Virus record (IMG/VR): IMGVR_UViG_3300009285_002757
Location: 1-47,010 of that record
DNA from: a virus
Length of the DNA: 47,010 nt
Strand: one strand, 5' to 3'
A program made the translations under genes and the position numbers. The notes below the pieces were generated by a model, which was not told the origin of the DNA, made no database searches, and saw only the letters and a list, made by a program, of their open reading frames with translations. This document shows, one piece after another, positions 6,328 to 46,920 of the stretch; position 1 is the stretch's first letter, and the number at the start of each line of letters is the position of its first letter.

Positions 6328-6402
6328 AGGCCCCAGGGGCCTCGAATGGCCAAAGTGCGTGTAGGACACAGGGGTTGGGCTGAAAATGGCGTGGCGGGCC
6401 TG
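6328..6402 (+). repeat. Structured repeat, copy A (inverted copy at 37433-37486)
   Basis: Contains the palindrome AGGCCCC-A-GGGGCCT (6328-6342), a GGCC...GGCC mini-stem (6338-6351) and a 40-base core (6363-6402). The core matches the reverse complement of 37433-37472 at 39 of 40 positions. Copy A has 11 extra bases between mini-stem and core. It lies just downstream of the tRNA gene. Not coding in any supported frame. Confidence 0.85.
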
Positions 6403-21693: not shown

Positions 21694-22773
21694 ATGAAAG
21701 TCAATTCTTCGGAACTGAAAATCCTGCTAGAACTGCTAGCTCCCTGCCTGGCATCCAGCAACTTCCTGCCAATACTTAGCATGGTCTGCTTTGACACGAA
21801 AGGCGTGTATGCCTTCAACGATCTTGTTGGCACAGACTTCCCATGGGAACACGGTCTACCTCCTGTGGCTGTCGATGGCAAAGCTCTATTAAGCTTTCTG
21901 TCCAAATTGAAAGATCAGGAACTAACACTTGACAGTACCACTTCCGGCAAATTGAAAATTACCGGAAAAGGTATAGAAGCTTCCCTCCCCACCATGGGGC
22001 CGGATGATTTCATCTTCAAGCGCCCTGCTGCCAAAGGGCTTGCAGCAACCATATCTGGTGTTAATGTCCTACAGCGTTTGGCGGAAGCCATTGATGTAGC
22101 AGCAACCTCCTCGGTATCTTCGGTGTATAAGAACGTAACCCTTGGTACACAGAAGGGAAGTAGCCTGTTTGCTTACGCTACGGATGGCCCCGCTTTAACC
22201 CATGCCAGAATTGGTTCCTTGAATGAAAAATTGGATCAGGAGCGCACCTGGATTGTGCCAAAATTGGCTATGGAACAAATTATTGCGGCAGGGAAAGCAG
22301 GGAACGATCCTATTGCAATAAACCTTTCCCTTGCGGATGACGCTTTGGTTATGGACAATAAGGACACTGTGGTATATAGCAAGATACTACAGGGAAATGC
22401 ACCTGATTTTGTCAAGGCTGTATCGGAAACGCCCGTTTGTACCATAGCAGATTGGGCCAAGGATGATCTGCTTACTGCCTTGGAAACAGCGGAGGTAATC
22501 TGTGACTCCTTTCTTAGCACCTGTCATGTTGGCATTGAAAAACAGACTGTAACCATACATGCCAGGGATGGCAAAGGGGAATTCAAAACGACCATAAAAG
22601 TACCTGTTGATCCGCCTGACACCAACTTTCAGTTCTCCATCAATCCTGCTCAGGTTATCCGAGCATTCAAATTCAAGGAAATTGCTGGCCCACTTGAGAT
22701 TACTAATAGGTACCTTGCCTTTGGCACGAAGGCTGAATTTTTGTATGCGGTAACCTTCAGCCGCAAAACCTGA
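21694..22773 (+). CDS. DNA polymerase sliding clamp, DnaN-like
   Basis: 359 aa, close to the length of bacterial beta clamps, with the three-domain repeat pattern of strands and helices (domains at about 1-115, 120-240, 245-359). Begins MKVNSSELKILLELLAPC and contains a typical PDxF-like GNAPDFVKAV segment in domain 2. It encircles DNA and tethers the polymerase at 23480; the matching loader is at 27567. Being bacterial in type, it would be expected to bind short QLxLF-like peptides, which is relevant to the recurrent tag found here. Ribosome site AAAAGGAATACC. Confidence 0.82.
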   Translation: MKVNSSELKILLELLAPCLASSNFLPILSMVCFDTKGVYAFNDLVGTDFPWEHGLPPVAVDGKALLSFLSKLKDQELTLDSTTSGKLKITGKGIEASLPTMGPDDFIFKRPAAKGLAATISGVNVLQRLAEAIDVAATSSVSSVYKNVTLGTQKGSSLFAYATDGPALTHARIGSLNEKLDQERTWIVPKLAMEQIIAAGKAGNDPIAINLSLADDALVMDNKDTVVYSKILQGNAPDFVKAVSETPVCTIADWAKDDLLTALETAEVICDSFLSTCHVGIEKQTVTIHARDGKGEFKTTIKVPVDPPDTNFQFSINPAQVIRAFKFKEIAGPLEITNRYLAFGTKAEFLYAVTFSRKT

Positions 22774-22916
22774 TGCCACTTAAATTCAAAAAGGTACCGT
22801 GGAAACGAAAAGAGGTAATTGGGGATGCTGTCCTGTATCTGGGGGATTGCCTCGAAATACTGCCGACGCTGCCGAAGGTGGATGCGGTGATTACTGACCC
22901 CAAATATGGCATTGGA
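22773..22916 (+). repeat. 5' methyltransferase repeat, copy 1 (copy 2 at 25968-26111)
   Basis: The first 50 bases of the two methyltransferase genes differ at one position, and the encoded 48 residues at three. Together with the 3' pair (23289-23479 and 26484-26674) these direct repeats bracket the polymerase gene. Confidence 0.85.
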
Positions 22917-23480
22917 TTTAAGTATGAAAACGACACTGATACTTTGGAGGATTGGTGTGTATTGATGAATGCTGCCGTACCACTTTGCAAAGCCATTGCA
23001 CCCTTCGTGATTATGCCTAGTTGTGCAATTAAACGCATTGAGTGGTGGTACGCAAATCATAAACCCGAATGGCTTGTGGCTTGGCATAAAGGAAGCCCTG
23101 GTCACATGGCCACTATTGGATTTAACGATTGGGAACCTCATGTGTGTTGGGGTAGACCAACACACCCAATGCACGATCATTTTTCTACTCCCTGTGGATT
23201 CGAGGAAAACGGCCATCCTTGCCCAAAGCCAATCAGCTATTCAATATGGTTAGTTGAGCGTGGTGCAGTGGTAGGACAGACGGTTTGCGACCCCTTCATG
23301 GGCAGTGGCACAACTGGCGTCGCCTGCATGAACCTTGGCCGAAAGTTCATCGGCATTGAAATCGAGCCCAAATACTTTGATATTGCTTGTGAACGCATCA
23401 GAAAAGCTGCTGAAGCACCACCTGATTTCTTTTTACAACAGAAACCAAAACCTATAAAACTTTCATTTTGGAAAAAGTAA
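22773..23480 (+). CDS. DNA methyltransferase paralogue 1 (DPKY motif)
   Basis: 235-aa beta-class N6-adenine/N4-cytosine methyltransferase fold: motif IV first (TDPKYG, 43-46) and SAM-binding motif I late (DPFMGSGTTG, 173-182). The catalytic DPPY is altered to DPKY, so activity is doubtful. Its first 48 and last 63 residues match the gene at 25968 at 45 and 58 positions, while the target-recognition centre is unrelated. It begins with a basic tag (MPLKFKKVPWKRK) and ends with KLSFWKK. TGATG overlap with the clamp gene. Confidence 0.85.
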   Translation: MPLKFKKVPWKRKEVIGDAVLYLGDCLEILPTLPKVDAVITDPKYGIGFKYENDTDTLEDWCVLMNAAVPLCKAIAPFVIMPSCAIKRIEWWYANHKPEWLVAWHKGSPGHMATIGFNDWEPHVCWGRPTHPMHDHFSTPCGFEENGHPCPKPISYSIWLVERGAVVGQTVCDPFMGSGTTGVACMNLGRKFIGIEIEPKYFDIACERIRKAAEAPPDFFLQQKPKPIKLSFWKK

Positions 23481-25978
23481 TGTCCTTCTCACAATACACA
23501 CCCTTTTTCCGGGTGCAGCCGGAAAGCAAGAAACAGCTAAGCCTGCCACTGGAAAGCATCTCTAAACTAGGGTGTAATGCCTGCACCCTGAATAAAATCA
23601 CACTGATCCACCCAAAAATGGATGCCACAGGTGATACCGACCCCCTGTTCTACTTTTTTGCGGAAGCACCAGGTTCCACTGAAGATGAACTTGGGGAACA
23701 GCTTATTGGTGAGTCTGGACAGATGATTCGTACTCGAATACCCTCAAAATGGAAAAAAAGAATACGTTGGAATAACACCGCAAACTGCCGTCCTCCATTG
23801 AATCGTGATCCCTCTCCACTGGAACTGGCCTGTTGCCGTCCCCGAATGGAAAAGGATATCATGGAGGCGAAGCCCGCCGTCGTTGTTGGCTTTGGCCGTT
23901 TCGCGCTGCAATGGGTGACTGGTGAAACCACCATGCACTTGTGGCGTGGCCGCAGGCTGGTACAACAACTGCATGGACACCCTTTCTGGTTCTATCCTAT
24001 TACTCACCCATCAGCTATCCTCCATTCTGGAGGATACCACACCAACAATCTTGATCTGCCGGTATTTGCCAATGATTTAAAACGAGTATTCCAAGAAGTG
24101 GAAGAATTGGATGACCCTGTAGTAATAACACCTGAACAGATGCAGAAAAACATTCGCTGTCTTAGTGGTAATGCAAAAGACTGGCCCGATATAATCAAGG
24201 ATTTCTGCCGCAAGAACAAGAAAGGCATTGGCTATGATATCGAGACCAACAACTTGCGCCCTTACCCGAATGAAGCGGCGATCCTGTCTGTTGCGTTGGC
24301 CACGACTGATAATGGTATTACCTTCCCAATTGCACACCCGGAGGCACGCCTTAAACCTGAAACACAGATGGCATTGCTTGCGGCAGTCCGGGATGAATTA
24401 CCAGGGATAGACTGGGTTGCTGCACACAATGCAGCCTTTGAACAGGAATGGGGTCTGAAATTCCTTGGCATGGAATCCACCAAGGCAACGAAATGGAAAG
24501 ATACCCAGGCGCAGGCGTTCACTTTGGATGAACGGCAAAAGATGCATAGCCTTGATACCATTTCTTTTATCCACTTGGGCTTGCGAATAAAGGAATTGCA
24601 TGATGTGGATGTGGAGCATCTTGACCAAGAACCTCTAGTTAAAGTATTACCATATAATGCTGGTGATAGCCGCGCCTGTGCTTTTCTTTACCCCATTCTT
24701 GCCGCAGAAATTGAACATCAAGGAATGGTTGGTATTAGTGATATGCATCAGCGACGATCTCTGACTATGGCAAGACTGAAGTATCGTGGAGTGGTTCCAG
24801 ACATTGTTGAAGCCAAGCGTCTGGATAAAGAGGTAGAGAATAAGGTCAACCTGGTTTTGAATGATATTGCTGAACACACAAAAGGGCATATCCGCAGACA
24901 TGGCAGGTTCAATCCCAACACGGCAGCGGATGTAAAGCGATGGTTCCTTGAGGAAATGCACCAAGACCTGCCAAGTACCGGCGAGGAATATTTATCACTG
25001 TCACCACACCCATTCGCTCAAGCTGTTCTTGATTACCGGACACTGACAAAGCTTCGTAGCACCTATCTAGCCAAAATCATTAGTGGTGAGCATATCTGGC
25101 CGGATGGACGCTTGCATAGCCTTTACTCACAACTTCGTGCCCGTAGTGGCCGTCTAGCTTCCAGCGAACCAAACCTGCAAAATATACCAAAGAGAGGCCA
25201 CAAGGAGATTCGGGGCGTAATAGGCGTCCCAAAAGGGTGTGTCCTGGCGTCATTTGACTATGGACAGATTGAAGCACGTGTTATTGCCATGGCTAGTAAG
25301 GATAAGTTCCTATGCAAAGCCTTGTGGGATGGGTATGATATTCACGCACACTGGACGGAACGCTTGGCCAAGGCGGATAAGAGGTGGGGGAAAGGTGCTG
25401 GCGATAAAAAGGTTTTCAAGCTATTGCGGGATCATGTCAAGAATGAATGGACCTTCCCTGCATTCTTTGGAGCGCAACTTGGTGCAGTTGCCAGTTATCT
25501 TGGCATTGATGATCGGACCCTGGAACCTCTATACATAGAATTTTGGGAACAGTTTGCTGGTGTAAAGCAGTGGCAGGAAAAAGTCTTATCATTTTACAAC
25601 ACCAACCTTTATGTAGAGATGCTGACTGGCAGGCGGCGGCATGGTCCATTGACTGCAAACCAGTTATTTAATACCCCCATTCAAGGACCGGCGTCTGATA
25701 TTGTGGTGGATGCCATGGAACGGTTGGACGATCTGTCAGATGAGCATGAGAAGCCTTGGTTAGCCCCAGTTATGAATGTGCATGATGACTTGGACTTTTA
25801 TCTGCCGGAAGAAACCAGTAAGCTTGAGGATGCCTGCGAACTAATAGGAAAAACTATGTGTATGACACCGTTTGACTTCGTTAATGTACCAATAACGGTG
25901 GAACTGGCAATTAGCGACAAATCCTTTGCTAAGGTAGAGGCCATTCATACCTTCAAATCAACAGATTATGCCACTTAA
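23480..25978 (+). CDS. Family A DNA polymerase with N-terminal UDG-like domain
   Basis: 832 aa from the TAATG overlap at 23480. Domain 1 (about 25-190) resembles family 4/5 uracil-DNA glycosylases: Cys32/Cys35, AEAPG (61-65) with TED, Cys103, Cys118/119 (a likely FeS set) and ITHPSAIL (174-181). Domain 2 (about 245-415) is a 3'-5' exonuclease: YDIET (Asp253, Glu255), AHNAAF and YNAGD (Asp396). Domain 3 is the polymerase: SGRLASSEPNLQNIP, motif A DYGQIE (Asp593), motif B R650...K654 with FFGA, motif C VHDD (767-770). All catalytic acidic residues are present. KQLSLPLES near residue 18 resembles a bacterial clamp-binding peptide. Probably the main replicase. Confidence 0.93.
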   Translation: MSFSQYTPFFRVQPESKKQLSLPLESISKLGCNACTLNKITLIHPKMDATGDTDPLFYFFAEAPGSTEDELGEQLIGESGQMIRTRIPSKWKKRIRWNNTANCRPPLNRDPSPLELACCRPRMEKDIMEAKPAVVVGFGRFALQWVTGETTMHLWRGRRLVQQLHGHPFWFYPITHPSAILHSGGYHTNNLDLPVFANDLKRVFQEVEELDDPVVITPEQMQKNIRCLSGNAKDWPDIIKDFCRKNKKGIGYDIETNNLRPYPNEAAILSVALATTDNGITFPIAHPEARLKPETQMALLAAVRDELPGIDWVAAHNAAFEQEWGLKFLGMESTKATKWKDTQAQAFTLDERQKMHSLDTISFIHLGLRIKELHDVDVEHLDQEPLVKVLPYNAGDSRACAFLYPILAAEIEHQGMVGISDMHQRRSLTMARLKYRGVVPDIVEAKRLDKEVENKVNLVLNDIAEHTKGHIRRHGRFNPNTAADVKRWFLEEMHQDLPSTGEEYLSLSPHPFAQAVLDYRTLTKLRSTYLAKIISGEHIWPDGRLHSLYSQLRARSGRLASSEPNLQNIPKRGHKEIRGVIGVPKGCVLASFDYGQIEARVIAMASKDKFLCKALWDGYDIHAHWTERLAKADKRWGKGAGDKKVFKLLRDHVKNEWTFPAFFGAQLGAVASYLGIDDRTLEPLYIEFWEQFAGVKQWQEKVLSFYNTNLYVEMLTGRRRHGPLTANQLFNTPIQGPASDIVVDAMERLDDLSDEHEKPWLAPVMNVHDDLDFYLPEETSKLEDACELIGKTMCMTPFDFVNVPITVELAISDKSFAKVEAIHTFKSTDYAT

Positions 25979-26696
25979 ATTCAAAAAGGTACCGTGGAAA
26001 CGGAAAGAGGTAATTGGTGATGCTACGCTGTACTTGGGTGATTGTCTGGAAATATTACCGACGCTGCCGAAGGTGGACGCTCTCATTACCGACCCGCCGT
26101 ATGGAATTGGACGCGACGGTCAGGCGCGCAGCACGGGCGGGCACGGTGGGCACAAGGAATACGAATTCATGGGATGGGATGCCGTGCGCCCAAGTGCCGA
26201 TTGTTTCCGTCTAATGCTATCTGCCGCTGATTATTATATTGTGTGGGGAGGGCAATACTTCGCGGATTTGCTTCCCGTCCATTCGCAATGGTTGGTATGG
26301 GATAAAGGACAGCGTATTAATCAATCCGACGGTGAACTGGCGTGGACTTCCCGCGATGGTGCTTTGCGAATCTATACACAAAACCGCGTTGCACTGATGC
26401 AGGATGGCGCGGAGCATCCAACGCAAAAGCCGATTGTGCTAATGCAGTGGTGTCTCGGTTTCGTTGAGTCCGAAAATATTCTCGACCCCTTCATGGGTAG
26501 TGGCACAACTGGTGTAGCCTGCATAAGCCTCGGCAGGAAATTCATTGGTATTGAAATAGAACCCAAATATTTCGACATCGCCTGTGAGCGCATCAGAAAA
26601 GCTGCTATGGCACCCCCTGATTTCTTTTTACAACAGAAACCAAAACCCACAAAACTTTCTTTTTGGAAAAATGGTGAAACTAAACCTAAAAAATAA
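25968..26696 (+). CDS. DNA methyltransferase paralogue 2 (DPPY motif)
   Basis: 242-aa beta-class adenine/cytosine amino-methyltransferase with intact DPPYG (43-47) and DPFMGSGTTG (173-182). Same N- and C-terminal shells as the gene at 22773, but the centre (about 49-170) is different and GC-richer, with WGGQYF and EHPTQKP elements typical of active enzymes. It likely methylates a specific site to protect phage DNA. The start overlaps the polymerase end by 11 bases; tags MPLKFKK and KLSFWKN at the ends. Confidence 0.88.
   Translation: MPLKFKKVPWKRKEVIGDATLYLGDCLEILPTLPKVDALITDPPYGIGRDGQARSTGGHGGHKEYEFMGWDAVRPSADCFRLMLSAADYYIVWGGQYFADLLPVHSQWLVWDKGQRINQSDGELAWTSRDGALRIYTQNRVALMQDGAEHPTQKPIVLMQWCLGFVESENILDPFMGSGTTGVACISLGRKFIGIEIEPKYFDIACERIRKAAMAPPDFFLQQKPKPTKLSFWKNGETKPKK
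26484..26674 (+). repeat. 3' methyltransferase repeat, copy 2 (copy 1 at 23289-23479)
   Basis: Codes for the SAM-binding motif, the C-terminal helices and the KLSFWK tag shared by both methyltransferases (58 of 63 residues identical). It forms the second half of the direct-repeat bracket around the polymerase gene. Confidence 0.8.
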
Positions 26697-37432: not shown

Positions 37433-37486
37433 CAGGCCCGCCACGCCATTTTCAGCCCGACCCCTGTGTCCTGGCCGTTCGAGGCC
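37433..37486 (-). repeat. Structured repeat, copy B (inverted relative to 6328-6402)
   Basis: On the minus strand this reads like copy A: GGCC...GGCC mini-stem (37473-37486) followed by the 40-base core (37433-37472), with 39 of 40 core bases the same. It fills the gap between the sbcD-like and sbcC-like genes, just upstream of the sbcC GTG start. Confidence 0.85.
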
Positions 37487-40889: not shown

Positions 40890-41104
40890 TGTATGCCAGA
40901 ATTGAAGTTGTGGAAGGGATTGAACAACCAATTGAACTTGTTCTATACCACAATAAACGGACGGCTGCCACAGGTTGTATTGGTCCCCTTGGACCACTAC
41001 TTATTATACAATTAACAAACAGACAGATATCTGAACTGCTGGTGGTCTACAAAATAAAGCCAGTACGTGTGGACTCCAGTCGGCAGAAACTTGGTGCCTC
41101 GTAA
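40889..41104 (+). CDS. Hypothetical protein, 71 aa
   Basis: TAATG start overlapping the previous stop, MYARIEVVEGIEQPIELV. Strand-rich small protein with no motif. Its end overlaps the longest possible start of the HNH gene. Confidence 0.6.
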   Translation: MYARIEVVEGIEQPIELVLYHNKRTAATGCIGPLGPLLIIQLTNRQISELLVVYKIKPVRVDSSRQKLGAS

Positions 41105-41501
41105 ATACCGATCCATGCAAGACAGAATTATTGCCAACACGGTGATAGAAGAAGGTGTTGGAATGATGCTAAATGGCGAATGGTCACCCTGCTGGATATG
41201 GATCGGTGCAGTAGTAACAAGTCGAAATGGAACGAAATATGGAAAGATGAGCACCACCAGATTCAAACGCGGCCCAAGAAAAGGAAAAAAGAGATATGAA
41301 CTTCCACATAGAGTGGTATTGAAAGTATTCAAGGGCAGAGTATTAAGGTCACGAGCAAAAGGAATGCATTTGTGCAATTATTCCCTGTGCTGTGCGCCTG
41401 ATCATTTGGTAGGTGGAACACAACGAAAGAATATCAGGCAGGCTGTTAAAGAAGGCAGACACAAACCCGGAACAGCTAATCAATATGGTACCTATAAATG
41501 A
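41067..41501 (+). CDS. HNH homing endonuclease 1
   Basis: 144 aa or less. CWIWIGA (around 42-48), a central PHRVVLKVFKG His, then HLCNYSLCCAPDHLVGGT fit an HNH nuclease with extra zinc-binding Cys residues. The start is unsure: GTG at 41067, GTG at 41094 or ATG at 41115, all with poor ribosome sites. Free-standing HNH genes of this kind spread by cutting related phage genomes. Confidence 0.8.
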   Translation: MWTPVGRNLVPRKYRSMQDRIIANTVIEEGVGMMLNGEWSPCWIWIGAVVTSRNGTKYGKMSTTRFKRGPRKGKKRYELPHRVVLKVFKGRVLRSRAKGMHLCNYSLCCAPDHLVGGTQRKNIRQAVKEGRHKPGTANQYGTYK

Positions 41502-41932
41502 GTTGGACCTTTATCAACATCCGTACCAGAATCCTTGCTGGTGACCTTCCGGGGTGGCTGAAGAGACATCCGCGTAAGGATCGTGTTATTCTGAATATCC
41601 TATCCATGCCACCATGGGTATCGCAAAAGGAACTACGAGAGTTTGAAAAGGAGGCTAAACGGAAAACCAGGGAAACAGGCGTAAGACACGTCATTGACCA
41701 TGGCATTCCAATTACACATCCTCTGGTTTGTGGGTTATCTGTGCCCTGGAATTTGCGGGTGATTCCACAAAGTGTGAACACCCACAAAAGCAATAAGTGG
41801 AATGAGGACCAAATGGATTTGTTTCAATGCGACCGAAAAAGTAGCCCTTCGAGGGGCTTTCGTAGTTTCACTAACAGTATCAAGGAGCAATCATGGACAT
41901 CAAAGCAACAGCAGATATTGGCGACAATCTGA
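41498..41932 (+). CDS. HNH endonuclease 2 with replaced C-terminus
   Basis: The core HVIDHGIPITHPLVCGLSVPWNLRVIP, then a Asn/His-containing KSNKWNEDQMDLF end, is the HNH pattern DHxxP(I/L)...VCGLxVPWNLxVI found in many phage and bacterial nucleases. After residue 107 or so the natural C-terminus has been replaced: the frame runs on into the inserted segment and ends SKQQQILATI at 41932. The original end survives at 42276-42353. Overlaps HNH 1 by ATGA. Confidence 0.8.
   Translation: MSWTFINIRTRILAGDLPGWLKRHPRKDRVILNILSMPPWVSQKELREFEKEAKRKTRETGVRHVIDHGIPITHPLVCGLSVPWNLRVIPQSVNTHKSNKWNEDQMDLFQCDRKSSPSRGFRSFTNSIKEQSWTSKQQQILATI
41766..41827 (+). repeat. 62-bp direct repeat flanking an inserted gene, left copy
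   Basis: Aligns without gaps to 42274-42335 with 52 of 62 bases identical. It encodes the same C-terminal part of the HNH protein. Between the two copies lie 446 bases carrying a two-membrane-segment gene. Confidence 0.85.
41843..41861 (+). terminator. Weak hairpin, possible terminator
   Basis: AGCCC (41843-41847) pairs with GGGCT (41854-41858), loop TTCGAG, followed by TTCGTAGTTTC. It is the first element of the inserted segment and might separate its gene from upstream transcription. Confidence 0.35.
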
Positions 41933-42273
41933 CCAGACTAATCGAAAGACTCGCACAACAAATTGGCGTTACTGCCGACAAGATTTTCCCTTGGTATGTG
42001 CAGCAGCAGATCATCGAAGGATGGGTGGCTCTTGCGATTATCTGCGTCACGTTGGTGGTTGGCAGCGTACTTATCAACAGCACGAAGCACAAGAAGTTAC
42101 AGTCTGACGGTGAACTGAACAAGACGTTTTTCGTTCTCATTGTTGGTGTGCTTATGACAGTCCTCGGATGTTTGGGGCTCGCGACCACTGGCAGCAAATT
42201 AACGGCAAAAATTCTTAACCCACAATACGCCGCAACGCAGGCGCTGATCAAGGACATCGCGCAACTACGGTGA
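41893..42273 (+). CDS. Two-pass membrane protein, possible holin-like
   Basis: 126 aa. N-terminal amphipathic region (MDIKATADIGDNLTRLIERLAQQIG), first membrane segment about residues 42-60 (WVALAIICVTLVVGSVLI), a short charged loop (NSTKHKKLQSDGELNK), second segment about 78-97 (FFVLIVGVLMTVLGCLGLA), then a soluble NPQYAATQALIKDIAQLR end. Length, topology and the NPxYxA-like end resemble small phage holin or superinfection proteins, but this is a guess. Ribosome site CAAGGAGCAATC. It lies between two copies of the HNH gene end, hence captured DNA. Confidence 0.75.
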   Translation: MDIKATADIGDNLTRLIERLAQQIGVTADKIFPWYVQQQIIEGWVALAIICVTLVVGSVLINSTKHKKLQSDGELNKTFFVLIVGVLMTVLGCLGLATTGSKLTAKILNPQYAATQALIKDIAQLR

Positions 42274-42335
42274 CACAAAGCGTGAACATCTACAAAAGCA
42301 ATAAGTGGAATGAAGATCAACTAGAACTGTTTGAA
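42274..42335 (+). repeat. 62-bp direct repeat, right copy
   Basis: Partner of 41766-41827. The right copy keeps the reading frame of the original HNH end and continues to its stop. Confidence 0.85.
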
Positions 42336-42353
42336 TTGGAGAACTCCCTATGA
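42276..42353 (+). pseudogene. Orphan 3' end of HNH endonuclease 2
   Basis: QSVNIYKSNKWNEDQLELFELENSL followed by TGA at 42351, in an ATGA overlap with the zinc-ribbon gene at 42350. It has no HNH core and no good start (GTG at 42282 only). This shows that HNH 2 originally ended here, directly coupled to the next gene. Confidence 0.8.
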
Positions 42354-42541
42354 GTATTGCTTTCAAATGTGATCGCTGTGGTACCTTTGAACAAGCTGCC
42401 ATCAATAATATATCTTTGCAATGTCATGTGGTTACTAATGTTGAAGATGATGATGCAACCAGTTATTCCTATGAAGTAGATTTCTGTGCCAAGTGTAGCG
42501 CAGAATTTCTGAACTTCACAAAAATAAGACTACCAATTTAA
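42350..42541 (+). CDS. Zinc-ribbon protein, 63 aa
   Basis: CDRCG near residue 8 and CAKC near residue 47 form a four-Cys zinc ribbon. GGAG lies upstream of the ATG in the HNH remnant. Such small ribbons may modulate transcription or replication; none recognised specifically. Confidence 0.75.
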   Translation: MSIAFKCDRCGTFEQAAINNISLQCHVVTNVEDDDATSYSYEVDFCAKCSAEFLNFTKIRLPI

Positions 42542-42557: not shown

Positions 42558-44060
42558 ATGACCACACAACTTGACCTCCTCTTGGTTAACGCCCCCTCCC
42601 GCATAGACGTTTATGGAGCACTTACCCCACTTGCCGCTATTGAGGTTCCAGTGTGGGCTGGGCTGATCGCTCGCTACTGCCTCAACAAAGGTTTCTCAGT
42701 GCAGATACTGGACGCCGAAGCGGAAGGGCTGACTACGGAACAGACGGCGCAGCGGATCGTAGATGCTGCCCCCCGCCTCGCCGTTTTCTGTATCTACGGC
42801 CAACAACCCTCGGCCTCCACTCAATGTATGCCGGGGGCGGTGGCTACATTGAAGTGGCTGCAACTTTACCACCAGGACATCCGCACGCTTGCCCTTGGTA
42901 CTCACCCATCGGCGCTCCCGGAGCAAACCGTAAAAGAGGGTTTCAATTTTGTTTGCCAAGGAGAAGGGCCAGTCCAAATAGTGGGGTTGTTTAAAGGGAT
43001 GAAAGAATCAATGTTCAGTTGCAGCCCCGGAGAGTCGTGGCAAATGCCTGGAATTTGGCATGGCAGGCAGCGCCCTTTTGCTACTACCCCAAATATCTCT
43101 GATCTTGACCGCGAACTCCCTTCCCAAGCATGGGAACTGCTGGACATGACCAAGTACCGCGCCCATAATTGGCATCTATGGTCTGGTGATCCAAAAGGAG
43201 GGTATGCCTCGATACAAACCTCCCTTGGCTGCCCCTATGCCTGCCAATTTTGTTGTATCAATACACCATTTGGTGGACGCGGTATCCGTTACTGGTCCCC
43301 CGCAGTAGTGGCAGCACAGATTGCCAATCTGCACATGAAATATGGGATCACCAACATCAAGATACCTGACGAGATGTTTGTCTTGAATACATCGCATGTG
43401 TGGCTAATCTGCAATCATCTCATTGACATGGGCCTCGGGAAGGTTCTCAATATCTGGGCCTATGCACGGGTGGACACGGTAAAAGACCAACAGTTGCTGG
43501 ACAAGATGCGCCAAGCCGGGTTCCGTTGGTTGGGTATTGGAGTGGAATCTGGGTCCAAGCATGTGCGGGATGGAGTAGAAAAAGGGCGCTTTGGTGATGA
43601 GGATATTGTTGCTGCGATCCGCCGCGTGCAAATGGCAGGTATCTTTGTGGGGGCCAACTACATCTTCGGGTTGCCGGATGATACCCACGAATCCATGCAA
43701 CAAACGCTGGACCTGGCATGTGAGCTAAACACAGAATGGGCAAACCTATATTGTGCCGTCGCTTATCCTGGTAGCCCGTTGCACAGTATTGCAAAACAAC
43801 GGGGCTGGCGACTACCGGAAGACCCCGGTGGTCCGGGCTGGATCGGCTATTCGCAGCACGCACCTGAAACACTGCCATTGCCCACGGAAACGCTGCGGGC
43901 AGGAGAGGTATTGGCCTTCCGCGATGAAGCCTTCCTCAAATATTTTTCCCGACCCGAGTATCAAATGATGCTGCAAAGGAAACTTGGGGAAGGGCCAGTG
44001 AAAGAAGTGCAGCAGATGCTGTCCCTGGGCAAACCAAAGCGACTTTATTTGGAGGCATGA
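42558..44060 (+). CDS. Radical SAM enzyme with B12-binding-like domain
   Basis: 500 aa. The N-terminal Rossmann-like domain (about 1-160; LLLVNAPSR, VQILDAEAEG, LAVFCIYGQQPSASTQ) resembles cobalamin-binding domains, but its usual DxHxxG cobalamin-ligand is not evident. The radical SAM domain starts at Cys225, Cys229, Cys232 (CPYACQFC), continues through GIGVESGSKHVRDGVEKG and IFVGANYIFGLPDDT. It resembles the B12-dependent/HopN-like or ThiH-like radical SAM groups used for methylation or rearrangement. With ThyX, DegT and cupin genes downstream, it could modify a sugar, a nucleotide or DNA; substrate unknown. Confidence 0.85.
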   Translation: MTTQLDLLLVNAPSRIDVYGALTPLAAIEVPVWAGLIARYCLNKGFSVQILDAEAEGLTTEQTAQRIVDAAPRLAVFCIYGQQPSASTQCMPGAVATLKWLQLYHQDIRTLALGTHPSALPEQTVKEGFNFVCQGEGPVQIVGLFKGMKESMFSCSPGESWQMPGIWHGRQRPFATTPNISDLDRELPSQAWELLDMTKYRAHNWHLWSGDPKGGYASIQTSLGCPYACQFCCINTPFGGRGIRYWSPAVVAAQIANLHMKYGITNIKIPDEMFVLNTSHVWLICNHLIDMGLGKVLNIWAYARVDTVKDQQLLDKMRQAGFRWLGIGVESGSKHVRDGVEKGRFGDEDIVAAIRRVQMAGIFVGANYIFGLPDDTHESMQQTLDLACELNTEWANLYCAVAYPGSPLHSIAKQRGWRLPEDPGGPGWIGYSQHAPETLPLPTETLRAGEVLAFRDEAFLKYFSRPEYQMMLQRKLGEGPVKEVQQMLSLGKPKRLYLEA

Positions 44061-44064
44061 AACA

Positions 44065-44235
44065 ATGCATTGGAACTTTAGCGAAGAGCAACTAGACCGG
44101 ACACTTGGTGAGTACATCACACGGTCTTTGCGCAGCGGTAGACGTGCGGCGGCCATGGAAAGGTATGCAGCTACTATACTTGACTTCTTAAAAAGTGAGG
44201 TAGCTAAGGAATTCAAATTGGTGCAGGAGGATTAG
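44065..44235 (+). CDS. Small helical protein, 56 aa
   Basis: MHWNFSEEQLDRTLGEYITRSL, then RSGRRAAAMERYAATILDFL: a two-helix protein with a basic centre. TTTGGAGGCATGAAACA leader gives good translation. Between the radical SAM and ThyX genes. No family recognised. Confidence 0.6.
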   Translation: MHWNFSEEQLDRTLGEYITRSLRSGRRAAAMERYAATILDFLKSEVAKEFKLVQED

Positions 44236-44238
44236 AGC

Positions 44239-44985
44239 ATGAAACCAATACTTGATCATGGGTACATCAATTTTATCGAAACCTGGGGCAGCGATGAGCG
44301 GATCATTGAGGCTGCGCGCATGTCCACGGGGAAAGGGTTTAATGGGTGGGGTCCCAAGCATCTACCCACCTGTCCGTTAGCTGGAATTAAAGGGACGCAG
44401 GAGATTCAGTGTACCTGTACACCCGAGGCCGGAGACGAAAAGCTACTCGCCTACCTCTACAACCACAAGCACATGACACCATTCGAGATGGCGGGTATGA
44501 TTATTGAAGTAAAAGCCCCGATCTTTGTGTTCAGGGAATGGCAGCGACATAGGACACAAAGTTATAATGAAATGTCCGCTAGGTATATCCCGTTGCCGGA
44601 CGAGAACTACACCCCGAGCGTAGAGCGATTGCTAATGACCAATAGTGTAAATAAACAGGCACAGTCAAGTGGGAAGGTCTTAAGTGAGGTCGGCGCACAA
44701 AATTTCCGTGATTCTCTTGGTCATTTGTACTATCATGCGCAGCGGCTATATGAATCTGCGCTTGAAGCCGGTGTACCGAAAGAGTTGGCCCGGCTGCCTG
44801 TGCCAGTTGCCCGCTATTCGAAAATGCGCGCCTCGGCCAATCTACGCAACTGGCTTGCGTTCCTAACGCTGCGCATGGACCCCGCAGCACAATGGGAAAT
44901 CAGATGTTACGCCAATGTAGTTGGTGACCTGATCGCGGAGAGGTTTCCGCATACCTGGGAACTGTTCATTGGAGAAAGAAAATGA
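44239..44985 (+). CDS. thyX: Flavin-dependent thymidylate synthase ThyX
   Basis: 248 aa. The defining motif RHRTQSYNEMSARY (103-116; family RHRxxSxNExSxRY) is intact. Uses methylene-tetrahydrofolate, FAD and NADPH to make dTMP from dUMP. An insertion of about 30 residues (37-66) with Cys45, Cys58 and Cys60 lies between ARMSTGKG and the HxTPFE region, where most ThyX proteins are short; it may bind a metal or be a local specialty. GCAGGAGG before the ATG. Confidence 0.93.
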   Translation: MKPILDHGYINFIETWGSDERIIEAARMSTGKGFNGWGPKHLPTCPLAGIKGTQEIQCTCTPEAGDEKLLAYLYNHKHMTPFEMAGMIIEVKAPIFVFREWQRHRTQSYNEMSARYIPLPDENYTPSVERLLMTNSVNKQAQSSGKVLSEVGAQNFRDSLGHLYYHAQRLYESALEAGVPKELARLPVPVARYSKMRASANLRNWLAFLTLRMDPAAQWEIRCYANVVGDLIAERFPHTWELFIGERK

Positions 44986-46160
44986 ACAAACCTTTTTGGC
45001 CTCTTGCCATCAACTCCTGGGGGGAGGAAGAAAAGCAGGCAGCACGGGAAGTCATTGACAGCGGCCACCTTACTATGGGAGAAAAGGTTAAGCAGTTCGA
45101 GGAAGCTTTTGCCAAATACATCGGCTCACAATACGCGGTAATGGTCAACTCTGGTTCCTCTGCTAATCTGCTGGCTATCGCTACCATATTAGCTAAATGG
45201 CAATTGCATAATCACAAAGTTGACATCACGCACGGTTACGAAGCCATTGTTCCGGCAATTGCCTGGTCTACTACCTACGCTCCTCTTGTACAACATGGTT
45301 TCAGACTGCGCGTGGTGGATGTTGATTTGGAAACATTAAACATGGGGGTTGAACAAGTAAAAGGAAACCGCTGGAATAATACCCGTTTATTGATTGGTGT
45401 TTCAGTTCTTGGCAATCCGGCACCCCTTGACCAACTACGCGACTACGCAGCGGAAAACGGGTTGTGGTTCATCGAGGACAACTGTGAATCCATGGGGGCG
45501 ACAATCAATGGCAAATACGCGGGGACGTTTGGAATAATGGGAACCTTTTCCACGTTCTTCTCTCACCATCTGAATACCATTGAAGGAGGGATTCTAGTCA
45601 CCGACGACCCCGAATTGTATGACATTGCGGTATGTCTCCGTGCTCATGGTTGGACACGCAACCTTGCAGGCAATACTCTAAAACACCACAATCACGCCTT
45701 GTCCTTTGATGCAGAATACTGCTTTCTGCTTCCTGGGTACAACTTACGTCCAACCGAAATTGCGGCAGCAGTAGGCTTGGTGCAATTGCAGCGGTTAAAC
45801 GAGATGAATTTGATACGATTGGCCAATACTGCTCGTTTCACATCCGCCTTTGCAGGCAACAAGATATTCATCACACAACGGTTCCATGGCGCACCAGTCC
45901 CGTTTGGTTTCACACTTATTGCAAAGACCCCTGAAGCTAGAGCAAAAGCATCAGAGGCTATGACCACAGCGGGAATTGAACACCGCTTAATTACTGGGGG
46001 TTGCTTCGCCAGGCACCCCGCAGCAAAATACTATGACTACACCATCCCAATTACCGGGCTGCCTAACGCAGTTCGAGCACATGACTGCGGCTTTTTTGTT
46101 GGTAATCACGCCTTCGATCTATCAGAACAAATTAAGCATCTCAAGGAGATATTGAAATGA
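44982..46160 (+). CDS. DegT/DnrJ/EryC1-family enzyme (His at PLP Lys position)
   Basis: 392-aa fold-type I PLP protein: NSGSSANLLA (56-65), FIEDNCESMGATINGKYAGTFGIMGTFS (around 163-190). Where the family has the PLP-binding Lys in S-K-N-L, this protein reads S-H-H-L (His195), as in the dehydratase branch typified by ColD and related E1-type sugar 3-dehydratases. A dehydratase on a nucleotide-activated sugar is therefore more likely than an aminotransferase. ATGA overlap with thyX. Might alter host surface glycan or a phage modification. Confidence 0.85.
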   Translation: MNKPFWPLAINSWGEEEKQAAREVIDSGHLTMGEKVKQFEEAFAKYIGSQYAVMVNSGSSANLLAIATILAKWQLHNHKVDITHGYEAIVPAIAWSTTYAPLVQHGFRLRVVDVDLETLNMGVEQVKGNRWNNTRLLIGVSVLGNPAPLDQLRDYAAENGLWFIEDNCESMGATINGKYAGTFGIMGTFSTFFSHHLNTIEGGILVTDDPELYDIAVCLRAHGWTRNLAGNTLKHHNHALSFDAEYCFLLPGYNLRPTEIAAAVGLVQLQRLNEMNLIRLANTARFTSAFAGNKIFITQRFHGAPVPFGFTLIAKTPEARAKASEAMTTAGIEHRLITGGCFARHPAAKYYDYTIPITGLPNAVRAHDCGFFVGNHAFDLSEQIKHLKEILK

Positions 46161-46270
46161 AAGACGACAGAAGATTAGAAGAAAGTTTTTTAATTGCAGA
46201 AGGGCTGTTCACTGTTTGCTTCCTGTTTATAATACTAACTCTACTATCAACATGCTCCACAATACCATGA
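46157..46270 (+). CDS. Single-pass membrane peptide, 37 aa
   Basis: MKDDRRLEESFLIAEG, then a hydrophobic LFTVCFLFIILTLLSTC. ATGA overlap with the gene before and overlap with the next gene's ATG. No recognised family; a short anchor or toxin-like peptide is possible. Confidence 0.5.
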   Translation: MKDDRRLEESFLIAEGLFTVCFLFIILTLLSTCSTIP

Positions 46271-46920
46271 TGTCAATAATTCTTAAGCCTTGGGGCCGTG
46301 AGTACCTTTGCTACCGTAATGAGGAAGTGGCAATTTGGCTACTAGAGATCAAGAAAGGAGCTTCCACCTCCCTTCATGCCCACCCTAAAAAGAATACTGC
46401 ACTAATCGTACTACATGGTTCTGCGGAACTTTCCTTCATCCGTGGGGAACCCAGGATACTAACCGGCTTGGACAAGATCAATATCTTCCGTGGTCGCTTT
46501 CATCGAACAACAGCTTTGGGGTACCCATCAAGGCAAGCGAATTCTGTCATTCTCCTTGAGGTAGAGGCACCAGACGACAAGCGAGACCTGGTACGATTAG
46601 ATGATGTTTATGGTCGTGCTGGAACACCAATTGAAGAAGCTACGGAACCTAAAGATTTGTCCTGCCTAGAAATCGCAGATAACAGAGAAACTTGGGTCTT
46701 CGCCAAATGTCTGCTGAAAATCATACACCCAATCAGTTTCGAAGCACTAAGTTGGCAAGCGGCAAGTACCATATTTGTCACTCTCCGTGGTGGACTGGAA
46801 CGTGGGTTGGTACCACCTGGAGATGCCATTGATGGTATAACAATGGAACGGCTGGTGCGAACCTTCCCACCCATCCCTGGTTCAGCCTTCTTGCAGATAT
46901 GGAAATGGAGCATCCCATGA
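46267..46920 (+). CDS. Cupin-domain protein, sugar-metabolism type
   Basis: 217 aa, start at the ATG overlapping the previous stop. The LKPWGREYLCYRNEE, then SLHAHPKKN (metal-binding His pair), then LHGSAELSF pattern is typical of the small cupins related to mannose-6-phosphate isomerase/GDP-mannose enzymes. The second half lacks clear cupin motifs. It probably works with the DegT-fold enzyme in a sugar pathway. Confidence 0.75.
   Translation: MMSIILKPWGREYLCYRNEEVAIWLLEIKKGASTSLHAHPKKNTALIVLHGSAELSFIRGEPRILTGLDKINIFRGRFHRTTALGYPSRQANSVILLEVEAPDDKRDLVRLDDVYGRAGTPIEEATEPKDLSCLEIADNRETWVFAKCLLKIIHPISFEALSWQAASTIFVTLRGGLERGLVPPGDAIDGITMERLVRTFPPIPGSAFLQIWKWSIP

Follow-up and report, generated by a model that had tools for sequence, protein, structure and literature searches.

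Analysis of a 47,010-bp uncultivated virus record (IMGVR_UViG_3300009285_002757; this full stretch is the window referred to below) revealed that the locus at its second HNH endonuclease gene (HNH2) bears a genuine recombination scar, of the kind that is ordinary in mosaic phage genomes. A cassette of hairpin, Shine–Dalgarno sequence and PHROG 1486 gene is located between the body of HNH2 and a second, diverged HNH tail (Table 1). With a probability of about 0.62, we consider that homeologous or illegitimate recombination, within an HNH gene or beside it, brought in this one-gene cassette.

Table 1. Features of the HNH2 locus, in window coordinates
Feature	Position	Strand	Basis
HNH gene 2 ORF, 144 aa; HNH core at about residues 34–110	41498..41932	+	ORF, profiles, structure model
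Left copy of the HNH 3′-end repeat	41766..41828	+	repeat comparison
445-bp segment between the repeats, with hairpin-bearing leader, Shine–Dalgarno sequence and membrane gene	41829..42273	+	sequence
Hairpin AGCCCTTCGAGGGGCT; resembles a weak terminator, with the better T-run on the minus strand	41843..41858		folding
Shine–Dalgarno AAGGAG, 5 nt upstream of the ATG of the membrane ORF	41882..41887	+	sequence
PHROG 1486 family protein of 126 aa, nearly full length, with two transmembrane segments	41893..42273	+	profile, alignment
Orphan HNH tail frame, 27 codons; GTG overlaps the membrane stop as GTGA	42270..42353	+	sequence
Right copy of the HNH 3′-end repeat	42274..42336	+	repeat comparison
Shine–Dalgarno GGAG of the downstream gene, inside the HNH tail just past the repeat	42338..42341	+	sequence
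Downstream small CxxC...CxxC (zinc-ribbon-like) gene	42350..42541	+	ORF, profiles

The 3′-end of HNH2 is present twice, as an ungapped 63-bp direct repeat with 53/63 positions identical (84%), a start-to-start distance of 508 bp and 445 bp between the copies. This is, within one base, the repeat described from the sequence alone as 62 bp with 52 identities and 446 intervening bases. In an all-against-all ungapped scan of the window, chance 63-mer pairs peaked near 39–42/63, and the only pairs above chance were the HNH tails, a methyltransferase gene pair and a tandem array at about 2.4 kb; self-blastn of the window gave the repeat pair an E value of 2e-12. Leftward of the right tail, HNH homology stops at the membrane gene stop codon, a TGA (42271–42273) that directly abuts the first base of the right repeat. 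With a 3-nt gap allowed, the HNH sequence GGTGA also aligns across the right junction, a match too short to prove that the membrane-gene stop codon is itself of HNH-side origin, as it may be.

HNH2 is the second of two HNH genes in tandem (41067–41501 and 41498–41932), which overlap by ATGA and belong to different HNH families. Profile searches matched it to phrog_26577 (5e-19; no function named) and to phrog_1035, endonuclease VII (1.6e-5), and its relatives match HNH PHROGs; a search against Pfam gave no match. In a structure model from a 26-sequence alignment (mean pLDDT 69), strands at residues 64–66 and 88–90 and a helix at residues 91–97 form a beta-beta-alpha core carrying the conserved D-H, N and N/K motif, which places HNH2 among the predicted HNH (His-Me finger, endonuclease VII-like) nucleases. 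Because D67, H68, N85, N94 and K97, invariant in the family, are intact here, HNH2 probably still folds as a nuclease.

The two copies differ in how they end. The last 34 codons of HNH2 are read-through into the insert, unrelated in sequence, as far as the stop at 41932; the frame extends 40 nt into the membrane ORF, and residues 119–127 of the model fall below pLDDT 50. Relatives of HNH2 were found in 43 phage records and in over 500 IMG/VR stretches, 80 of the latter being fetched, and the distance to the C-terminus was counted from the conserved K-x-N motif in 85 relatives. A median of eight residues followed the motif (90th percentile 17, maximum 38), and the same count, made by hand on the window translations, gave 45 for the left copy and 16 for the right. 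Since the end distances of the relatives fit 16 and not 45, the right copy looks like a native terminus and the left copy like one fused to unrelated sequence, as the sequence-only reading had held. Natural C-termini such as ...PFEQMELL and ...WCEQSELF are also similar to the right end, ...NEDQLELFE.

In the HNH frame, the right copy stays open for some five codons past the repeat, up to a TGA (42351–42353) that overlaps the downstream ATG (42350) as ATGA. It is the orphan tail overlapping the downstream gene that had been recognized at first sight. The orphan frame is possibly translated by coupling, and, judged from this arrangement, the tail may have been retained for the downstream ribosome-binding site and overlap.

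The segment between the repeats holds the hairpin and the two-membrane-segment gene that the sequence-only reading had placed there. Taken alone, the hairpin folds with −8.8 kcal/mol and is at best a weak terminator; folding of the whole 64-nt leader is no stronger than that of shuffled sequences (z=−0.52), and a promoter scan stayed at chance level and listed no promoter-like site in the leader. The membrane protein matched PHROG 1486 at 2.4e-12 over residues 9–123 of 126 and has hydrophobic segments at residues 43–61 and 79–97, that is, the full-length profile match and two transmembrane segments of this family. Its alignment with members from Bacillus, Geobacillus and Staphylococcus phages extends through a common NP[EQ]Y C-terminus; the members were first located by tblastn with an approximate family-like query and then confirmed as PHROG 1486, and their gene neighbours vary between phages. 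Going by the PHROG category only, the two-helix hairpin would fit a small phage inner-membrane protein, for example an exclusion or takeover factor. Neither GC content (0.488 versus 0.481) nor codon usage marks the gene as clearly foreign, its codon score of −0.017 lying only just below the range of 26 genes (lowest −0.011).

The closest homologue of the membrane protein, 43% identical, lies on a contig binned with a Sulfuricurvum genome (assembly L129), in which no HNH2 relative was matched; the claim that the insert is a self-contained gene holds up in that its homologues occur elsewhere without HNH2. A search of 228 genomes of the bacterial family around L129 with the membrane protein matched L129 only. 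Because this homologue runs about five residues further at its C-terminal end, a few codons of the membrane gene may have been lost at the window junction. The contig (JAQTTG010000010.1; L129 5469–6375), titled a Sulfuricurvum MAG, carries small phage-type ORFs and, from ORF reading alone, terminase-like genes about 2 kb downstream of the homologue, and it is probably a phage contig binned with the bacterium.

How the junction arose can be approached from the divergence of the tails. None of their ten differences creates a stop, and most are synonymous or conservative. When the same number and type of changes were placed at random, 0.6–1% of trials were equally conserving (P=0.006–0.01 in a test that rests on 10 substitutions), and it is thus probable that each tail still encoded a functional HNH C-terminus while they diverged. 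Such protein-conserving divergence favours recombination between HNH alleles or paralogues over a fresh target duplication. It speaks for an origin in a related HNH gene, which the sequence-only reading had offered as an alternative, and insertion into one single HNH gene, which it had proposed as the event, found no support. The same holds for its dating of the event and for its naming of HNH2 as a homing endonuclease: neither a target site nor an empty site was seen, and the family is endonuclease VII/HNH-like. In the explanation that we favour, the right tail would most likely derive from a related functional HNH gene, either the allele of a co-infecting phage or a tandem paralogue, and the two would have been joined within or beside the HNH 3′-end by a homeologous or illegitimate junction. 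HNH2 would in this way have lost its own last codons and come to read 34 codons into the cassette, and the right tail would keep the downstream ribosome-binding site and the ATGA overlap. The order of events, the donor and the reason for the retention of the tail are inferred.

A narrower form of the same explanation places the donor within the genome: tandem HNH2 paralogues came first, and the membrane cassette later took the place of the 5′ part of the second paralogue, whose tail was left behind. We consider this possible, if tentative. Two HNH genes, albeit from different HNH families, are already in tandem here, the methyltransferase pair is evidence that this genome keeps paralogues that have diverged but have conserved ends, and protein-conserving tail divergence fits two long-functional paralogues; however, no recognizable HNH sequence is found upstream of the right tail.

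It is unlikely that the HNH and membrane genes travel together as homing-endonuclease cargo, a minimal form of the HEG islands. In these islands nuclease genes lie at the boundaries of genetic exchange, with a conserved segment of >10 kb, and HNH genes, often found at such boundaries in phages, have been proposed as cargo carriers (PMC10448857). The present locus resembles them in that an HNH nuclease gene borders a segment that was apparently exchanged, and HNH genes also occur near the PHROG 1486 gene in Kayviruses, although these need not be related to HNH2. In contrast with the islands, the segment here is 445 bp long with one non-essential-looking gene, one flank is merely a tail, and the homing role of HNH2 is putative. 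No HEG-bracketed segment of high nucleotide identity between unrelated phages was seen, the locus having no nucleotide-level match among phage records. A relative carrying the HNH and membrane pair was not found, the recurrence needed for such cargo was not seen, and the 43%-identical homologue comes without a detected HNH2 relative.

A simple insertion of the cassette that duplicated 63 bp of a single HNH gene as its target, and was followed by drift, would account for a segment with flanking direct repeats and is nevertheless improbable. The 445 bp contain neither a transposase gene nor a terminal inverted repeat, the 16% divergence is protein-conserving rather than drift-like, and target duplications are usually shorter than the 63-bp repeat. 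An assembly chimera or strain-variant artefact, which might be suspected of a metagenome-type record with a junction seen in no relative, is very improbable, as the longest exact run common to both tails (22 bp) is below usual assembly overlaps and neither side shows a disturbed reading frame or overlap. Hardly credible, finally, is a natural end of HNH2 at 41932 with the right repeat as an independent small gene: the ORF is open to that position, but 85/85 family members measured end sooner, and the extension, which is modelled with low confidence, runs across the hairpin and over the start of the membrane gene. The sequence-only reading had itself set such an end in related phages as the case against it; such relatives were looked for without success, but the search also turned up no close relative of any kind.

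The locus can also be compared with two other known arrangements. Morons, described in lambdoid phages (PMC1524935), are insertions of one gene with transcription signals on its flanks. The cassette is moron-like in that it is a single self-contained gene, placed between older phage genes, that has a translation signal of its own and a hairpin close by, and PHROG files PHROG 1486 under moron/host takeover; unlike morons, the locus has no promoter found, a weak hairpin and a duplicated gene end as its flank, and the distinct composition expected of a moron was not observed. Truncated HNH remnants are common in phages and have been described in Skunavirus and Xanthomonas phages (PMC12724721, PMC2248197), where partial HNH genes likewise stand next to intact ones. 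Here, in contrast, the remnant comprises the last 80 bp, is in frame and overlapping, and apparently serves the downstream gene.

No close relatives of the window were found in the collections searched. A nucleotide search for the locus among near and distant phage records gave no match, nor did single-sequence IMG/VR scans with the membrane protein, HNH2 and an SbcC-like gene, and an exact IMG/VR search with the 19-mer core of the repeat found none. Neighbours by DNA polymerase reached only 34% identity and lacked HNH2 and the membrane family; neighbours by the radical SAM gene were distant records only, none with a membrane-family gene or an HNH2 relative. As no relative with an uninterrupted HNH2 was found in these collections, we infer the ancestral state from the window. 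Among the loci of HNH relatives that were examined, no other tail duplication resembled this architecture (one 25-bp and one 15-bp direct match and one inverted match were seen), and therefore no recurrence backs any mechanism. An intron reading of the locus was rejected, Rfam showing no intron and no known RNA over 39–44 kb.

Other parts of the window also hold repeats and modules. Two methyltransferase genes (22773–23480 and 25968–26696), which flank a family A-type DNA polymerase gene (23468–25978), are 85% identical over the first 144 bp and 86% over the last 189 bp, with unrelated middles. The pair looks like specificity swapping between paralogues and is a second mosaic in the genome, of the same identity class as the HNH tails. 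A 40-bp sequence occurs in inverted orientation at 6363–6402 and 37433–37472 (97.5% identical), the second copy being intergenic, and is possibly a regulatory or recombination element. Identical 29-bp sequences around GGGCAGGCCGAAGAATCTGGCACCAAA lie in two intergenic regions (864–892 and 2222–2250) and are a possible phage regulatory element. Genes for a B12-type radical SAM protein, a ThyX-like thymidylate synthase, an aminotransferase and a cupin-like protein lie at 42558–46920, and since homologues of the radical SAM, aminotransferase and cupin genes occur together in L002 (62%, 54% and 53%), the region suggests a metabolic module.

Taken together, the locus establishes no new mechanism. 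With breakpoints within codons of the gene ends, it is an unusually legible junction of phage mosaicism. A more far-reaching idea, which we hold to be very improbable, is that HNH 3′-ends are recurring docking sites at which each incoming cassette brings a homologous HNH tail and so re-establishes the downstream ribosome-binding site and overlap; if this were true, further genes could be added behind a nuclease with no penalty from polarity. The second copy of the nuclease tail accounts for the preserved translation start of the downstream gene, and the locus illustrates how a new gene can enter without cutting off the gene behind it.
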